Positions 5,537 to 25,126 of a stretch of DNA of 34,664 nt are shown in pieces (position 1 is the stretch's first letter; each line of letters starts with the position of its first letter). The position numbers and the translations under genes were made by a program. The stretch covers positions 1-34,664 of IMG/VR virus record IMGVR_UViG_3300008110_000194; one strand, written 5' to 3'. Below the pieces are notes generated by a model. It ran no database searches. It saw nothing but the letters and a program-made list of their open reading frames with translations, and was not told the DNA's origin. This DNA comes from a virus.

Positions 5537-5570
5537 TTGACACACGATTAAATGGTTGGTATATTACCAA
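5537..5570 (+). promoter_or_regulatory. Early internal promoter with palindromic operator over the -10 box
   Basis: TTGACA (5537-5542) and TATATT (5560-5565) are separated by 17 bases, with TGG just before the -10 (extended -10). The perfect palindrome TTGGTATATTACCAA (5556-5570) covers the -10 box. The same arrangement recurs at 8117-8150. A repressor bound here would block the promoter, so the palindrome is a likely operator. The promoter serves the gene at 5592 and those after it. Confidence 0.82.
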
Positions 5571-9491: not shown

Positions 9492-9679
9492 TGGATATAG
9501 ACAGTAAAGTATTAGCTGAAACGACACAAGAGGTCATAAGTAAGCTGACACAACGCATAGCAAAGCTAGAGGATGCGCTTAAACTAGGTCTTGAGTATTG
9601 GGCGCATAGACAACAGCGATATAAAAACAGAAGCCCTATATGGGTAGAACGAGCAAGGGAGGCATTGAAGGATGAATAA
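9491..9679 (+). CDS. Small coiled-coil-like protein
   Basis: A 62-residue protein. Residues 7-35 (LAETTQEVISKLTQRIAKLE) form a probable amphipathic helix or coiled coil. The tail reads ERAREALKDE and is encoded by a 25-base repeat that occurs again at the end of the next gene. AGGGGGAG before the ATG serves as ribosome site. Function unknown. Confidence 0.58.
   Translation: MDIDSKVLAETTQEVISKLTQRIAKLEDALKLGLEYWAHRQQRYKNRSPIWVERAREALKDE
9655..9679 (+). repeat. 25-base gene-junction direct repeat, copy 1
   Basis: The 25 bases 9655-9679 (beginning AAGGGAGGCATTGAAGG) are identical to 9920-9944. Each copy encodes REALKDE plus stop for one gene and, overlapping, the Shine-Dalgarno and first codons of the next. 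The copies lie 265 bases apart and flank one complete gene. Confidence 0.95.
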
Positions 9680-9944
9680 CGAAACTAGAGATAAAAAGGG
9701 GCGCATGATTCAGAAGTATGATGTTCTTAAAGTGTATCACTTCACTGGCTCTCGAAATAAAAAATATTATATGTATAAACACGTAATAGAAGATAAGGCA
9801 ATCAACGGAAATTATTTCACTGTTTCCTCTTTATCAAGAGATAATCATACTTATAGCTTGGGTATGTATTTAGGCATTTGCAATGATATTGAAATAGTGC
9901 AGGGAGAAGGGCTAGATGAAAGGGAGGCATTGAAGGATGAATAA
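9672..9944 (+). CDS. Early protein of unknown function, flanked by direct repeats
   Basis: A 90-residue protein. It opens with RDKKGRMIQKYDVLKVYHF (5-23), a beta-barrel-like start typical of small phage proteins of the YopX-like type, then KYYMYKHVIEDKAINGNYFT and a beta-rich end. The 25-base repeat spans both its start and its stop, so the gene could be lost or gained cleanly by recombination. YopX resemblance is weak and only by eye. Confidence 0.58.
   Translation: MNNETRDKKGRMIQKYDVLKVYHFTGSRNKKYYMYKHVIEDKAINGNYFTVSSLSRDNHTYSLGMYLGICNDIEIVQGEGLDEREALKDE
9920..9944 (+). repeat. 25-base gene-junction direct repeat, copy 2
   Basis: Exact copy of 9655-9679. It ends the 90-residue gene and overlaps the start of the DUF551-like gene. 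Recombination between the copies would remove 265 bases and fuse the flanking genes without changing their reading frames. Confidence 0.95.
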
Positions 9945-10338
9945 TAAGGAAAGCATAGCAATACTAGAGCGCGATATAGATAGGTTTAAGGATGCGGATT
10001 ACAAGCAAGCCCTATCCCACGCCATAGAGGTGTTGAAGGCGAGTGAGTGGCAACCGATTGAAACTGCACCTGTAGGCATACCAGTATTGCTTTGTGGCGG
10101 CACAACGACAGAAACTTATGTTGATGAAGATGATGGCACAATACATACATTTGACGATGACCCATTTTACAAAAGACCAGCTACGGCGTATTTTAAATAT
10201 TATGATTCTAAACACCTAGATGACAAAGATGATGACCACCCACGCGGAAGATGGATAATGGGATTTTATGATTGTGCTTGTAAAATAGAATATCATAACC
10301 CAACCCACTGGATGTTGCTACCAAAGGAAGGTGAATGA
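9937..10338 (+). CDS. DUF551-like protein
   Basis: A 133-residue protein. WQPIETAPVGIPVLLCGG (38-55) and the end NPTHWMLLPKEGE carry the two landmarks of DUF551: the WQPIETAP entry and the closing PTHWM-x-LP. The family is common in phage accessory regions and its function is unknown. An extra acidic insert (VDEDDGTIHTFDDDPF, about 62-77) lies between them. The N-terminal 35 residues are a helical extension. The end is encoded by a junction repeated after two later genes. Confidence 0.75.
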   Translation: MNNKESIAILERDIDRFKDADYKQALSHAIEVLKASEWQPIETAPVGIPVLLCGGTTTETYVDEDDGTIHTFDDDPFYKRPATAYFKYYDSKHLDDKDDDHPRGRWIMGFYDCACKIEYHNPTHWMLLPKEGE

Positions 10339-10764: not shown

Positions 10765-10968
10765 GACTTAGATTCAGCATATAGATTGTATATAGCTTTT
10801 ATTATTATTCCAGCCACCGCTTATATTTTTTATAGCGCGGCAACAGGAAATAAATGGGCAATTATGATTGTTTGTATTTGTTTGGCGATTAGCTATGGCG
10901 ATAGAGTTTGGAATATAAGAGGCGATTCATTCTTTTATAACTTTATAAAGGGAATACAAGATAAATGA
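10762..10968 (+). CDS. Small membrane protein
   Basis: A 68-residue protein with two hydrophobic stretches, about 8-25 (LYIAFIIIPATAYIFYSA) and 31-45 (KWAIMIVCICLAISYG), and a polar C-terminus (GDRVWNIRGDSFFYN). Start set by the AAGGAAGG junction. Function unknown. Confidence 0.58.
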   Translation: MDLDSAYRLYIAFIIIPATAYIFYSAATGNKWAIMIVCICLAISYGDRVWNIRGDSFFYNFIKGIQDK

Positions 10969-11132
10969 AAAAAGAACTCGTCCTATTATTGCAATTCAAC
11001 GATAGCGTTACCGGTAAACCGATAACAGTCGAGATGCCCGAGGCGGAGTTTGACGCGCTTGTAAACAAAATTGACATTATGCGGAGCAAGTGGCATAATG
11101 AAAACGATGATATGCCAAGGGGGATTACTTAG
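10965..11132 (+). CDS. Last early gene, small protein of unknown function
   Basis: A 55-residue protein starting in the ATGA overlap. It begins with beta-like sequence (KKELVLLLQFNDSVTGKPIT) followed by a helix (PEAEFDALVNKIDIMRSKW) and an acidic end. The pattern recalls small proteins that regulate partners through one strand and helix, but no family was recognised. It is followed only 4 bases later by the structured RNA region. Confidence 0.6.
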   Translation: MKKELVLLLQFNDSVTGKPITVEMPEAEFDALVNKIDIMRSKWHNENDDMPRGIT

Positions 11133-11136
11133 TCAT

Positions 11137-11389
11137 TATAGTGAAGACATTGGGGAGGTTGTATGCCCCGTCATATTGTTGGCGACAAAAGCCTTAAATG
11201 GCAATAATTCAATGTCTTTATTATACTGATTAGCCACTCTTGATGATAACAGTCTAATCGGGCGATGGGCTGTTATCATTTGGTGTGGTTACGCTCAAAT
11301 GGCATGTGACAGCCAACCGTTGCCATGGCAGGGCGAAAAGAAAATTGTCACTTAACAAATCGCATTTGGCAAGCCTATGACCACACCAA
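11137..11389 (+). ncRNA. Structured RNA candidate at the end of the early unit (three stem structures)
   Basis: No credible gene lies here. Three stem structures follow one another. (1) 11137-11152 pairs with 11210-11225: 16 pairs, two of them G.U, enclosing a possible three-way junction with GGG/CCC and ATTG/CAAT helices. (2) 11243-11252 pairs perfectly with 11270-11279, extended inward by UCUA/UGGG pairs with two more G.U. (3) 11280-11289 pairs perfectly with 11380-11389 and encloses CAAATG/CATTTG (11296/11363) and GTGACA/TGTCAC (11306/11346). All non-Watson-Crick pairs are G.U on this strand and would be A.C on the other, which favours a plus-strand RNA. It could be a separate RNA or the 3' end of the early mRNA. 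Confidence 0.6.
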
Positions 11390-11391
11390 CC

Positions 11392-11411
11392 TTTTGGTCA
11401 CATATATGTGT
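11392..11411. repeat. AT-rich palindromic repeat, copy 1
   Basis: TTTTGGTCACATATATGTGT contains the perfect palindrome CACATATATGTG. A near copy starts 33 bases later. On the plus strand the palindrome is followed by TCTTTTT, so it might also act as a weak terminator for the early unit. As DNA, two palindromes about three helical turns apart look like paired protein-binding sites. Confidence 0.75.
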
Positions 11412-11424
11412 CTTTTTCGATGCG

Positions 11425-11444
11425 TTTTGATCACATATATGTTT
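11425..11444. repeat. AT-rich palindromic repeat, copy 2
   Basis: TTTTGATCACATATATGTTT matches copy 1 at 18 of 20 positions and keeps the core ACATATATGT palindrome. The spacing of 33 bases from copy 1 would put both sites on the same face of the helix. Candidate operator or iteron pair; no nearby promoter clearly uses them. Confidence 0.75.
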
Positions 11445-11607: not shown

Positions 11608-11793
11608 CTATTCACACCTTTGATTATGCGTTATCGCTTGCCTAGCGTCATCTTTAGTCAATACAGAGTTAATCGAAAAATCTAACTTCTCGCAGGCATT
11701 TATCACGTGGGTATTTGGTGAGCACCCACTCACAGTAAGCATTGACAAGATCATCGCCAACAAGTTTATAGTTTTTCTTTTTACGTTTTTCAT
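11608..11793 (-). CDS. o-spanin lipoprotein (Rz1-like)
   Basis: A 61-residue protein. A basic start (MKNVKRK) and a hydrophobic stretch lead to LTVSGC, a lipobox with the lipidated cysteine at 24. The mature part of about 38 residues has two further cysteines. The gene begins inside the i-spanin gene in another frame and extends past its end, the classic Rz/Rz1 overlap. Together the two proteins would bridge the periplasm and fuse the membranes in the last step of lysis. It lacks the proline-rich stretch of lambda Rz1. Confidence 0.78.
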   Translation of the reverse strand: MKNVKRKTINLLAMILSMLTVSGCSPNTHVINACEKLDFSINSVLTKDDARQAITHNQRCE

Positions 11794-11959
11794 GTTGTTT
11801 CTTTTCTTTTTGTTTGGCGTTTTCTGCCTCTTGAATGCACTGTATTTTACCTTCTGCTACCCCTGCATTATACCGCGCTTTACCGTACATTGTAATTAAA
11901 AAACCGCCAAGGGCTATTAAACCCAAGGCGGTAAGTAGTACATAGGGGGGAAAACGCAT
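11669..11959 (-). CDS. i-spanin (Rz-like)
   Basis: A 96-residue protein. Residues about 5-25 form an N-terminal membrane anchor (PPYVLLTALGLIALGGFLIT), followed by a charged, lysine-rich helical region (about 45-65, many K/E/Q) that would reach across the periplasm. Two cysteines near the end (YCEW and DKCLRE) may form disulphides. The o-spanin gene overlaps it in another frame. The start overlaps the stop of the holin-like gene (TAATG). Assignment rests on architecture and gene overlap. Confidence 0.8.
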   Translation of the reverse strand: MRFPPYVLLTALGLIALGGFLITMYGKARYNAGVAEGKIQCIQEAENAKQKEKKQHEKRKKKNYKLVGDDLVNAYCEWVLTKYPRDKCLREVRFFD

Positions 11960-12114
11960 TATTTCTTCGGATTCACAACAGAGAAATAGTCAAGCACTTT
12001 GACAATCTTTGCCAAAATAGCATCGTCTTTTTGTGTTGGTGTTCTAGCTACAACAATAGTTGCCGCCGCAACAAGGTATCCAAATACTGTAAATAAATCG
12101 TTAATTAAGTCCAT
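11959..12114 (-). CDS. Small holin-like membrane protein
   Basis: A 51-residue protein. AAAGGA lies 6 bases before the ATG. One membrane segment (about 7-23, LFTVFGYLVAAATIVVA) is followed by RTPTQKDD and an amphipathic helix ending in basic NPKK. It is the first gene behind the lysis promoter at 12226 and is coupled to the i-spanin gene (TAATG). Holin is the natural guess from context, but a single-pass accessory protein is equally possible, since the 75-residue membrane protein at 15202 could also be involved in lysis. Confidence 0.68.
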   Translation of the reverse strand: MDLINDLFTVFGYLVAAATIVVARTPTQKDDAILAKIVKVLDYFSVVNPKK

Positions 12115-12134
12115 GTTCAATCCTTTGGTTAGGG

Positions 12135-12338: not shown

Positions 12339-12854
12339 TCACCGCACCCGCGCATATTGAAAATGCATTGCATCGGGTTTATGCCAACGCGCACCCGCAG
12401 TCCAACCTGCTTTTTCAAACATCTCAACAACCTGTTTTGGCATCATTCCCTTTTCAGGATTCCACTTCACGCCTAATCCGTTAATTTCAGGGGCTAGATC
12501 AATCGCCGCGCCCCATGAGTGTATGGACATAGTGGTCATGTTCCCCCGCACTGGACGGGCAAAAAAACCGCCCCCACATTTATCTAGCTGGAATAAAGCG
12601 CGCTCTTTAGCGTCAAATTCCTGCCCTATTTGAACCAATACAGCCATTAGGGATTGCGCTACCTTTTTATGCACTCTAATTCTCTCACATTTACCGCCCC
12701 ATGACCATTCCATTGGATAAGGCGGTTTAATGAATACTAGGTTATTATCCGACCAAACGGGATCAACCCTAATAATACCACCCGCAGATGATTGAAATTT
12801 AGGATTGCCATAAAATGCGTTAAGGGCTTGTGGTGATGATAGTGGTGCGGTCAT
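12339..12854 (-). CDS. Endolysin, M15-type zinc peptidase
   Basis: A 171-residue protein. SIHSWGAAIDL (110-120) gives the H-x6-D zinc site of M15 (D-Ala-D-Ala carboxypeptidase/VanY-like) enzymes, with H112 and D119, and DAMHFQYAR (161-169) gives the third ligand H164. Such phage enzymes cut peptide cross-bridges of peptidoglycan at lysis. No signal peptide is seen, so release needs a holin. The start overlaps the DUF6378-like gene (ATGA). Last gene before the terminator. Confidence 0.86.
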   Translation of the reverse strand: MTAPLSSPQALNAFYGNPKFQSSAGGIIRVDPVWSDNNLVFIKPPYPMEWSWGGKCERIRVHKKVAQSLMAVLVQIGQEFDAKERALFQLDKCGGGFFARPVRGNMTTMSIHSWGAAIDLAPEINGLGVKWNPEKGMMPKQVVEMFEKAGWTAGARWHKPDAMHFQYARVR

Positions 12855-21745: not shown

Positions 21746-23138
21746 GGTATGCTCCTATCAATGATATTTTAACGGGGTCTGAAATTGATAATCGAAATGT
21801 CATTTGATCGGCAACTCCCAAACGTCTAAATACGACTTTTGTCTGGTATTGACCAACAGCCCCCATACTTGACTGTATTGTCCCCGACCATGTTTTTGCG
21901 CCATCTCTACTTAGCTGCAAAGAGGCAATGGGATTAACTCCCTGCCCTGTTTGTAATCCTACACCATTTTCTAGTAGAATTTCAAGTTTATTATAGCGAG
22001 TTAATTGATTTTCATTGTTCAAATGTGTAAAAATTCTATCGCGCCGTATAGGGTCGCCGTTGTCTGAAAAAATATCTTGCGAAAACTCATAAACATTCCC
22101 GTTCCGTCTATCGCCAACCAGGTGTTTGCCAAACGCAAACATGACTCCACCCATTAAATGTTGCTCAAATTCACCATTATTTAAATAAGCTCTTTCATGC
22201 CATAAATTTGTTGCAACATCAAAAACAAGGGAAGTTTCAAGCCCACCGCCTGTGATAATATAAAAATCATGCCCGTCTTGCTGATATGAAAATGCACGCA
22301 TGTTAGCCTTATCAGTGGCTTTTTTAATCTGCAACTCAATGGCTTCCGTTGACACTCTTTGTGGGCTAAATCCACTTGCTCTATAAACAACGCCTTCACC
22401 ATCAGCATTAGCACCAACCCAAAATACAGAGCTTCCGTGTTCTAGTGCAGTGTGAGCCGCCATAATCCCCACTGGCATTTCAGCACCTGATATTTTTTGA
22501 AACGCAAAAGCCGCATCACCTGTATTTGTCCAAATCTCGGTTGATCTTCCGCCAAATAACCATAATTGACCTGCACCACGAATTGGTCTTACAAGAGCAT
22601 CAGGCGCACCCTCAGCAGTTGCGAAATCAAGCGCGTTCCAGCTTAATCCATCGTTAAGGGCTGATATATAAAACCGCCCTGTGTTGTTTTGGTTAACTAC
22701 AAAATATCCATCAATATAAGTAATAGTGCCAACACTAGCAGGCAAATCAGGGTCTGTAACTTTTTGAAAGGCATTTGTGGCATAGGTTAGTATATATACG
22801 TTTGTACCATCGCACAAAGCTAATTGGTTAAGATTTTCGTCAATAGATATGTTTCCGCGAAATGTGTCTAAAGTACCCCTTAGTACACTTGTGCCATTTG
22901 ATAATACTTCATATAATTCTGTGCCCGATACGCTAAACGCTCTGCCGTTGCTTGACGCAAAACATTGCCGTGTAGGACCAGAGCCCGTTAATGCGAATGA
23001 ACCTAGTCCGGGTGTGCCAAACAACGCCGCAACCTCAACAGCTTGCTGGTCAAATATAGGGTATAGATTAATTGTTCTTTGCGCGTTAAACGGCAATGAT
23101 CTTTGTTGATATGATGGACCGACTAAGCCTATCTTCAT
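21738..23138 (-). CDS. P22 gp10-like tail hub / DNA stabilisation protein
   Basis: A 466-residue protein from the ATG at 23138 (TAATG overlap), close to the length of P22 gp10. The start KIGLVGPSYQQRSLPFNAQR (2-21) and TINLYP, then FVVNQNNTGRFYISALNDG and SWNALDFATAEGAPD (about 150-185), and FWVGANADGEG, are the standard landmarks of this family, which folds as a beta-propeller. Six copies would form the hub that plugs the portal after packaging and binds fibres. It follows gp4-like and precedes a tail tip candidate, as in P22. Confidence 0.9.
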   Translation of the reverse strand: MKIGLVGPSYQQRSLPFNAQRTINLYPIFDQQAVEVAALFGTPGLGSFALTGSGPTRQCFASSNGRAFSVSGTELYEVLSNGTSVLRGTLDTFRGNISIDENLNQLALCDGTNVYILTYATNAFQKVTDPDLPASVGTITYIDGYFVVNQNNTGRFYISALNDGLSWNALDFATAEGAPDALVRPIRGAGQLWLFGGRSTEIWTNTGDAAFAFQKISGAEMPVGIMAAHTALEHGSSVFWVGANADGEGVVYRASGFSPQRVSTEAIELQIKKATDKANMRAFSYQQDGHDFYIITGGGLETSLVFDVATNLWHERAYLNNGEFEQHLMGGVMFAFGKHLVGDRRNGNVYEFSQDIFSDNGDPIRRDRIFTHLNNENQLTRYNKLEILLENGVGLQTGQGVNPIASLQLSRDGAKTWSGTIQSSMGAVGQYQTKVVFRRLGVADQMTFRLSISDPVKISLIGAYLE

Positions 23139-23827
23139 TACATCCACCCGTTTTCAAATCGACCACTTCTAATCACAAGGGGATTACTGTCCATTGAGCG
23201 ATTGCGCATAATGTTAGCCCGAACTAATCCCTTACTATCCTCAGCTATTTTTAACACTAACGGATCAAGCTGTAAGCCGTACTCTGGCGCGACATCAACA
23301 GCAAGGTTATAAATTAACATTCTTTCCCAGCCTGTTGGCAAAGTGACCTCATCATCAAGCCCTAATCTAGTTACTGCTTTCTCAGTCAATAAGAATATCT
23401 GATATGATTTATCAGGCACTGGATAAAGCCTTATATTAACCAATGGGCTTCCATTATCAGAGTTTATATAAGCTGGAACGGATAAAGTATCCTTTTGAGA
23501 TATTTGATTATTATACATTTCATCGGAAATTATAGATAAATTATAATCCGTGTTACCATCGGCAATATAAGACGATACAATCAAAAGCGGTCTTGCGGTG
23601 TTAAAATCACCACCTACGCCCATGGTATAATTACCATTACCGCCCGTGATATTAAATGTTTCCCATGATCTTGCATATACTAACATGCTATCATTAGCAA
23701 ATGACTCCAATAAAGCGTTTAAAGCATCTAGTGCATCATTTGCTTCGTCCGCCGTTATTACAGTGCCATTAAAGCTAACGCCGATTTTTTGAAGGGCTTT
23801 TGTAATTATATCTCTTGCTGTCGTCAT
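23138..23827 (-). CDS. P22 gp4-like tail accessory factor
   Basis: A 229-residue protein from the ATG at 23827, which follows GGTGGGA; the in-frame opening from 23860 covers a hairpin and was rejected. TTARDIITKALQKIGVSF (2-19), EANDALDALNALLESFANDS and LPTGWERMLIYNLAVDVAPE (about 168-187) follow the gp4/head-closure pattern. It would bind the portal after packaging and seal the head. It is longer than P22 gp4 by some 60 residues, mostly in the beta-rich middle. Confidence 0.86.
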   Translation of the reverse strand: MTTARDIITKALQKIGVSFNGTVITADEANDALDALNALLESFANDSMLVYARSWETFNITGGNGNYTMGVGGDFNTARPLLIVSSYIADGNTDYNLSIISDEMYNNQISQKDTLSVPAYINSDNGSPLVNIRLYPVPDKSYQIFLLTEKAVTRLGLDDEVTLPTGWERMLIYNLAVDVAPEYGLQLDPLVLKIAEDSKGLVRANIMRNRSMDSNPLVIRSGRFENGWM

Positions 23828-23857
23828 GATCCCACCGATAAAAGCTAAACAATCGAA

Positions 23858-23875
23858 CACACCCCGAAGGGTGTG
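23858..23875 (-). promoter_or_regulatory. C(UUCG)G hairpin between coat and gp4-like genes
   Basis: CACACCC-TTCG-GGGTGTG on the minus strand gives seven G/C-rich pairs with the very stable UUCG loop. No T-run follows, so it is not a full terminator. It sits 10 bases after the coat stop and 31 bases before the next start, and could attenuate downstream transcription or protect the coat message from 3' decay, raising coat output. Confidence 0.75.
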
Positions 23876-23884
23876 CTCTGTAAT

Positions 23885-25126
23885 TTAGCTGGTTACGCGG
23901 CATAACCATTCGTCACGGACAACTGCCGTACCGAATTGAATGTCAAGACGCATTTTGAGTTGGTCAGTGTCGCCATCGTAGAATTTGATAGCGCGCATTG
24001 AGATACCATCAACGGTTTCGGTTGAGCACTCAACAACGCCATTGCCCGGATCAAACAAAGGCACAGACGCAAAGCGAACTGCCGATGGGTGATACACAAG
24101 TGAGTTAGCTAATGGCACAACGCCAGTACCGGTTGAGAAGGTCAATGCAGCGTTATCAGCGATTGTTGCTGATACGTTTTGACGTGGACCAGAGAAGAAC
24201 AACGCAGGGCTAATTGGGAGAGCCGCAATCGCGCCAGCAGTTGCCGCTGTTGTAGCAGTTACAGTGAACTGTTTCAAGTTCGGCAATGTTGCTTTTGTAA
24301 TTGGGTTAACATCAAATACGCCAGCGATTGTGAAGGTCGTGCCTGCCGTTAGGTTGTTTGTGCCAGTGATAGCATCAACAGCGATTGTTGTTGCACCATT
24401 GGTTGAAACAGCACCGTTTACAAGTACGGATTGAGCGTTAGCTGTACCGTTTGTGTGGGTGTACGCAAGGTTAGAAGTCATGAAATCCATACCGAGTGTG
24501 GTTGAACCCAAGTAACCTGTGCGGAATTGCTTAGCAACTTGCTCTGTAGGCAAGAACAAACCTTGTAAAGCTGGAACCATTGTCGTATTAACCGACTGAT
24601 GGATAACAGCCAAAAGGTTGTCTTGTGGGCAAGATTGAGCGCGAATACGCTCAGCCGCTTGCAAAAACACGCCCGAAGTAGCCGGTGAAGTGCCCGGTGT
24701 ACCTACAGTCATGTAAGCCGCTTGCGTAGCCAATTGAAGGTTATAAGCCTCAACAGAGTCAGCAATACGGGCTACAGCCGGTTTAAGGAAGCGATCCGCC
24801 CATGATCTCAATTGTGCATCTGTTGCAATTTCAGCAGATGTTAAATCAATATCAACACCACGGCGCTGGTTAACGGTTAATGCTACGCGCTCTTCAATTG
24901 TATCTTGAGTTGCAAATGTAGCGTTTGACCGCACGTTATAGCGAGCGTTTTTATTGATGTAGATGGTATCACCCGGCTGGACTGATTTAAAGCCTTGACC
25001 GAATGTTGACTCATCTTCTTTATCCACAGATGCTGTAAAACCTAAGCGGTTTCTCAGCATTACTGCACCCATCTTGGCGGCAACGCCTGTCAGGGATTTT
25101 ACTGTATTAATAGTATTGGTAGCCAT
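23885..25126 (-). CDS. Major capsid (coat) protein, P22 gp5-like
   Basis: A 413-residue protein, near the P22 coat length. The N-arm (ATNTINTVKSLTGVAAKMGA), the QPGDTIYINKNARYNVRS and VALTVNQRRGVDIDLTSAEI blocks (about 50-110) and the closing FYDGDTDQLKMRLDIQFGTA and VVRDEWLCRV are characteristic of the P22 coat family (HK97 fold). A threonine/alanine-rich region at about 225-320 would be the inserted I-domain. It is the shell of the head, assembled on the scaffold encoded just upstream. AAAGGA precedes the start. Confidence 0.94.
   Translation of the reverse strand: MATNTINTVKSLTGVAAKMGAVMLRNRLGFTASVDKEDESTFGQGFKSVQPGDTIYINKNARYNVRSNATFATQDTIEERVALTVNQRRGVDIDLTSAEIATDAQLRSWADRFLKPAVARIADSVEAYNLQLATQAAYMTVGTPGTSPATSGVFLQAAERIRAQSCPQDNLLAVIHQSVNTTMVPALQGLFLPTEQVAKQFRTGYLGSTTLGMDFMTSNLAYTHTNGTANAQSVLVNGAVSTNGATTIAVDAITGTNNLTAGTTFTIAGVFDVNPITKATLPNLKQFTVTATTAATAGAIAALPISPALFFSGPRQNVSATIADNAALTFSTGTGVVPLANSLVYHPSAVRFASVPLFDPGNGVVECSTETVDGISMRAIKFYDGDTDQLKMRLDIQFGTAVVRDEWLCRVTS

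Follow-up and report, generated by a model that had tools for sequence, protein, structure and literature searches.

The question raised by this locus is whether a gene-free stretch between two convergent blocks of phage genes encodes a structured RNA and, if so, what kind of work that RNA does. The window analysed here is the whole of IMG/VR record IMGVR_UViG_3300008110_000194 (34,664 bases), from an uncultivated phage of a P22-like lineage. Its minus strand encodes a P22-like portal (Pfam P22_portal, E 8.8e-150), a Terminase_3-type terminase, a head closure protein and a major head protein, and this late block closes with a lysis set that comprises, all on the minus strand, an M15 peptidase (12339-12854), a small ORF (11959-12120) and an Rz-like spanin (11669-11959). 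The plus strand carries an early-type block with a Sak-like annealing protein, a methyltransferase and many small ORFs, and the last ORF of this block lies at 10965-11132. The sequence of interest, which we call element A, sits between the early and late blocks. As had been predicted, it begins 4 bases past the last early gene, whose ORF ends at 11132, and the region holds no conserved gene.

The original prediction described a helix of 16 positions with two G.U pairs, formed by 11137-11152 and 11210-11225 on the plus strand and closing a three-way junction. Re-checked on the sequence, this pairing is correct. The gapless run of the closing helix, P1, extends inwards by two further G.U pairs (11137-11154 with 11208-11225; 18 pairs, 4 of them G.U), and beyond a single mismatch six outer pairs follow (11130-11135 with 11227-11232). 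Over this full extent, 11130-11232, the plus strand folds at -37.2 kcal/mol against a shuffled mean of -19.8 +/- 3.3 (z -5.34), and none of 200 shuffles folded as well. The minus strand of the same segment reaches -21.0 kcal/mol, which agrees with the earlier view that the structure makes sense as a plus-strand RNA. Nowhere else does the window have a gapless helix that combines at least 12 Watson-Crick pairs with a span of no more than 140 nt. In 40 dinucleotide-shuffled copies, 1.3 such helices were counted per copy, and helices with at least 14 Watson-Crick pairs arose 3 times across all 40 (roughly 0.07 per genome). As a bare inverted repeat, P1 is only mildly unlikely for a genome of this size. 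Because helices of 14 or more pairs also arise in shuffled genomes, single-sequence statistics are insufficient to settle the nature of element A, and we take comparative evidence, not the fold of one sequence, to be decisive.

A comparison was made possible by one related phage, found through the spanin gene (IMG/VR 3300037882_000458, handled here as L087 and G046; 33.9 kb). Its late genes closely resemble those of the window (spanin 82% identical, head-region proteins 71-89%), and its early genes match weakly. A counterpart, A', occupies the place between its early and late blocks, with strand and order conserved; it reads AGTTAGCTATCG GCA GGGTTGTATA TGC CGTTTACGATAAAA CCCC TTTAAT GGGG AATAATA CGATAGCTAACT and folds with z -4.5. 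It shares the loops and joints of A, and its stem letters are replaced with pairing intact. To search for the element we used a covariance model, R2, whose only input was the window RNA with its fold; the alignment behind another model, R1, was padded with N, and the window-only R2 therefore serves as the independent test. Over the whole relative, R2 gave a single match, on the plus strand at the syntenic site (9899-9975; 46.7 bits), with an E-value of about 1.6e-8 that is rough, as covariance-model E-values are in this setting. When the R2 alignment was modelled without base pairs (R3), nothing in the relative was found up to E=10. Over 486 kb of DNA from other phages, R2 scored no higher than 18.5 bits. 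Because the relative partly guided the choice of the window fold, in its third arm, the R2 test is independent of the letters of the relative and not wholly of its structure.

In the two-row alignment, both partners differ in 9 of the 19 pairs (P1 six, P2 two, P3 one), and all but one of these are still standard pairs; sliding the 3' partners by 1-3 columns as a control left 0-2 such double-sided changes. Paired cells make up 97.4% of the alignment, against 32-47% with the partners slid by 1-3 columns. These figures rest on two sequences and are good evidence for the fold rather than a formal covariation analysis. Compensatory change in related phages, the check proposed for the original prediction, is thus seen in the sole relative that the searched collections contain. 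As aligned, the two predicted folds retain a three-way junction in which stem letters have been replaced pairwise, loops are fixed and the genomic place is kept. The proposal of a novel plus-strand structured RNA with a three-way junction is accordingly supported, by a fold kept through paired changes in one relative. That element A is a real conserved RNA we regard as highly probable, and it is very probably an undescribed functional RNA.

The alignment also defines the anatomy of the element on the plus strand. The covarying core of P1 comprises 11140-11152 and 11210-11222. P2 (11153-11168) pairs GGG at 11153-11155 with CCC at 11166-11168 around the loop AGGTTGTATG (11156-11165), and in the relative it is GCA/TGC around GGGTTGTATA. 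A conserved single-stranded joint, GTTGGCGACAAAA (11178-11190; GTTTACGATAAAA in the relative), leads to P3 (11191-11202), in which GCC at 11191-11193 pairs with GGC at 11200-11202 around TTAAAT; its equivalent in the relative is CCCC TTTAAT GGGG. A second joint, AATAATT (11203-11209), follows P3 directly, and its AATAAT (11203-11208) is conserved. Between P2 and the first joint the window is 8 nt longer than the relative. Of the inner arms originally proposed, GGG/CCC was right; the combination of ATTG/CAAT with GGC/GCC can be drawn in the window and is not kept in the relative, so we rejected it for the supported third arm, GCC-UUAAAU-GGC. The letters unchanged in both phages (RGGUUGUAUR, GUUNNCGAYAAAA, UUWAAU and AAUAAU) all lie in loops and joints. 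Such confinement is characteristic of an RNA that makes contact with something through its single strands.

The original prediction recognised no known RNA class, and our searches agree. No part of the window matched Rfam 15 at the gathering cut-off, and no plus-strand match to element A appeared up to E=10; nor did we find described elements of this kind in the literature. A nucleotide search of 50,697 phage records matched only a small hairpin, CCACCCGAAGGTGG, and tRNA T arms, and nucleotide matches to plasmids were rejected as chance. DNA-pattern scans of IMG/VR for the loops returned at least 120 stretches in one case and 46 in the other; some of these were examined for a helix around the loops, and the known relative alone has one. 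Among terminase relatives (80 loci, the best 54-60% identical), element A was absent from the records searched, and no prophage relative appeared in the genome collections scanned. Three weak matches were set aside as chance. One, in L002 (14.8 bits), lies inside a DnaD-like ORF. The other two, L045 9406-9480 (18.5 bits) and L035 1361-1435 (16.8 bits), are without the GGUUGUAU loop; both have a 13-bp helix and UUGUUGACGUUAAAAG, lie upstream of the terminase and are probably a coding stretch of the other strand. Element A can be described as a candidate family of 83 positions with fixed loops and two known members. Fast sequence divergence makes phage non-coding RNAs difficult to detect; in this case a helix noticed by eye in one genome was confirmed by an independent homologue that was visible to a structure-aware model and missed by a sequence-only one.

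Element A is one module in a row of folded modules: A, B and C in the window, and M1, M2, A' and C' in the relative. Module B (11242-11280, plus strand) is a long hairpin of 39 nt, GATGATAACAG...CTGTTATCATT, with z -6.08, and is absent from the relative. Module C (11280-11389, plus strand), identified by folding and sequence, is closed by TTGGTGTGG/CCACACCAA; the closing helix of C' is TTGGACTGG/CCAGTCCAA, with two double changes relative to C. C' is predicted to fold as a cloverleaf, and the inner arms drawn for C and C' are tentative; the strings CGAAAA.AAAA and CAAGCC are common to the two. M1 has a 12-bp closing helix. M2, about 108 nt long (G046, L268, 9784-9892), is tRNA-like, with closing strands TTGGACGGG/CTCGTCCAA, an acceptor of 7-9 bp, a canonical T arm GGTGGTTCGATTCCATC and an extra hairpin, and without a normal anticodon arm. 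Escherichia phage Murica has an atypical 99-nt tRNA-OTHER whose T arm is similar. The candidate family is accompanied by further modules in a syntenic row that varies in make-up between phages.

Signals for expression were sought around this row. Promoter-like matches occur throughout the region at about twice the shuffled number, which limits the weight of consensus calls such as the following. A sigma-70-like promoter, TTGACA-17-CATAAT (11071-11099, plus strand), is called on its 11/12 consensus match only; TG precedes its second hexamer, and the site falls within the last early ORF, with about 30 bp between its end and element A. In the relative, TTGACA sites occur at 9519 and 9558, about 100-150 bp ahead of M1. 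Within the early block of the window, near-identical strong promoter-like sites (TTGACA-17-TATATT-ACCAATA) lie on the plus strand at 5537 and 8117. No clear plus-strand intrinsic terminator was found after module C and the cassette. The opposite strand may carry a small RNA gene of its own (11602-11455; about 115 nt), in which a candidate promoter, TTGACA-17-TATTAT at 11602-11574 (11/12 consensus match), is combined with a GC-rich hairpin CCACCTTCGGGTGG and its T-rich tail TTTTGCTTT at about 11478-11455; the RNA folds with z -2.3 and was not found in the relative. Between these features and module C are two TCACATATATGTGA-like palindromes, TCACATATATGTGT (11398-11411) and TCACATATATGTTT (11431-11444), 33 bp apart. 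Three such palindromes follow C' in the relative (G046 10071, 10104 and 10134; 33 and 30 bp apart), so that the 33-bp spacing, three helical turns, is common to both phages. They are probably DNA-binding sites of a dimeric regulator, operator-like rather than RNA.

Two further structured stretches were seen outside this region. In the relative, in the stretch that separates the endolysin from the small ORF preceding the spanin (L087 4688-4725, plus strand), the Rfam abiF RNA is matched with 46.6 bits (cut-off 37), and no abiF gene was seen beside the match in the late operon; it could be just a terminator of similar appearance or a copy, carried by the phage, of the AbiF-restraining RNA. The hairpin at the corresponding place in the window, CCAGTCGCTCTAACGGCTGGTTTTTT, is terminator-like and unrelated. 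In a coarse scan, the 110-nt stretch of the window that folded most strongly lay at about 23816-23925 on the minus strand (z -5.2); it takes in the beginning of the ORF that follows the coat protein gene (23138-23860), together with the gap ahead of that ORF.

What might element A do? No plus-strand gene that it could control as a leader lies downstream, and the next plausible genes are all on the minus strand. Riboswitches and other 5' leader regulators sit upstream of a gene on their own strand, and the position of element A therefore excludes a leader of this type. Because no cis target is present, a role in trans suggests itself. The explanation we favour, holding it about evenly balanced between right and wrong, is that element A is a conserved plus-strand RNA, one module of an early phage cassette of small stable RNAs, that would act in trans. 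Early transcription by host RNA polymerase would start at the element's own sigma-70 promoter, inside the last early gene, and read-through from the early operon would add to it. The long stems may permit trimming by RNase III or E-type enzymes into stable pieces, and the fixed loops may serve in trans as binding sites for an RNA or for a protein of the host or the phage.

The main rival has element A act in cis, as the 3' end of the early mRNA: a helix of 18-24 bp, cut by RNase III or blocking exonucleases, would trim, stabilise or retro-regulate the transcript or insulate it from convergent late transcription. In favour of this, element A of the window starts 4 nt past the last early stop, the transcription units converge and P1 of the window is long enough for RNase III. 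However, a plain RNase III stem needs no fixed loops, and it is the loop letters that are kept while the stems are replaced; P1 of the relative, moreover, has just 12-13 pairs. The last gene before the cassette also differs between the two phages, and in the relative M1 and M2 intervene between that gene and A'. The occurrence of the cassette after different last genes speaks against control of one particular upstream gene. We consider the cis role possible and, on balance, unlikely. The tRNA-like features of the row invite a different reading, that it is what is left of a phage tRNA-type array, or a variant of one, with degenerate tRNA-like genes kept by drift or processing needs. This would account for the predicted cloverleaf of C' and for M2, with its acceptor and canonical T arm, the latter matching tRNA genes of other phages; the tRNA-Sec model scores M2 at 27.8 bits, below its cut-off of 47. 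Yet ARAGORN called no tRNA in either phage, M2 included, and element A itself has no T arm and another topology. Its pairing is under selection, which is not decay, and we judge a decaying array to be improbable.

Readings in which the conserved entity is a peptide or the DNA itself fare worse. In P2 of the window, GGGAGG TTGT ATG CCC offers a Shine-Dalgarno-like GGAGG and an ATG, and could serve as the ribosome site of a translated mini-gene or leader peptide with a 14-codon ORF from about 11163. The ATG of the relative opens an 8-codon frame in another register with respect to the conserved letters, the two peptides do not match and stem letters change freely at all codon positions. The different registers of the possible ORFs make a leader peptide unlikely, and we find it scarcely credible. 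A DNA-level feature, such as an origin or a protein-binding inverted repeat, is very improbable. The 33-bp-spaced palindromes do adjoin the element in both phages, but the G.U pairs of P1 favour a plus-strand RNA, as the two folding energies reflect, and only the loops are kept, not the stem sequence as in a DNA-binding site. The favoured explanation, a trans-acting module, can be carried further. The row may be a new type of phage RNA cassette, made of separately closed, interchangeable modules (three-way junction, cloverleaf, tRNA-like, hairpin) that are gained and lost between phages like genes, expressed early from their own promoter and acting as decoys or inhibitors of host RNA-acting proteins such as defence ribonucleases. 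We offer this extension as a speculation and hold it to be doubtful.

Several known phage RNAs resemble element A in part. The lambda sib-type retroregulator, an RNase III 3' element, is likewise structured and directly follows a phage gene, and sib retro-regulates int; element A differs in its conserved three-way junction and fixed loops, and in the relative it stands apart from the last gene. HK022 put is a small structured early RNA at the start of early operons, where it acts on polymerase ahead of genes, whereas element A lies at the end of the early block, with no downstream gene. GOLLD and ROOL are large structured phage-associated RNAs, and GOLLD sometimes lies beside tRNAs; the cassette modules are much smaller and closed individually, and the Rfam search up to E=10 gave no match to either family in either of the two phages. 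T4 offers a closer parallel in rnaC (species 1) and rnaD (species 2), non-coding stable RNAs of about 120-140 nt that stand in a row beside tRNA genes. We know of no function for either. Like M2 of the relative, whose layout recalls it, rnaC carries a tRNA-like T arm. Element A, in contrast, has another topology, belongs to an unrelated phage lineage and occurs in a window without tRNA genes; homology was rejected, as R1 scored about 5 bits on rnaC and R2 gave no match. By analogy, T4 RNA C and D are probably nearest to element A in manner of working without being its homologues. Element A makes testable a question that dates from these T4 RNAs, whether early phage RNAs target host RNA-binding proteins.
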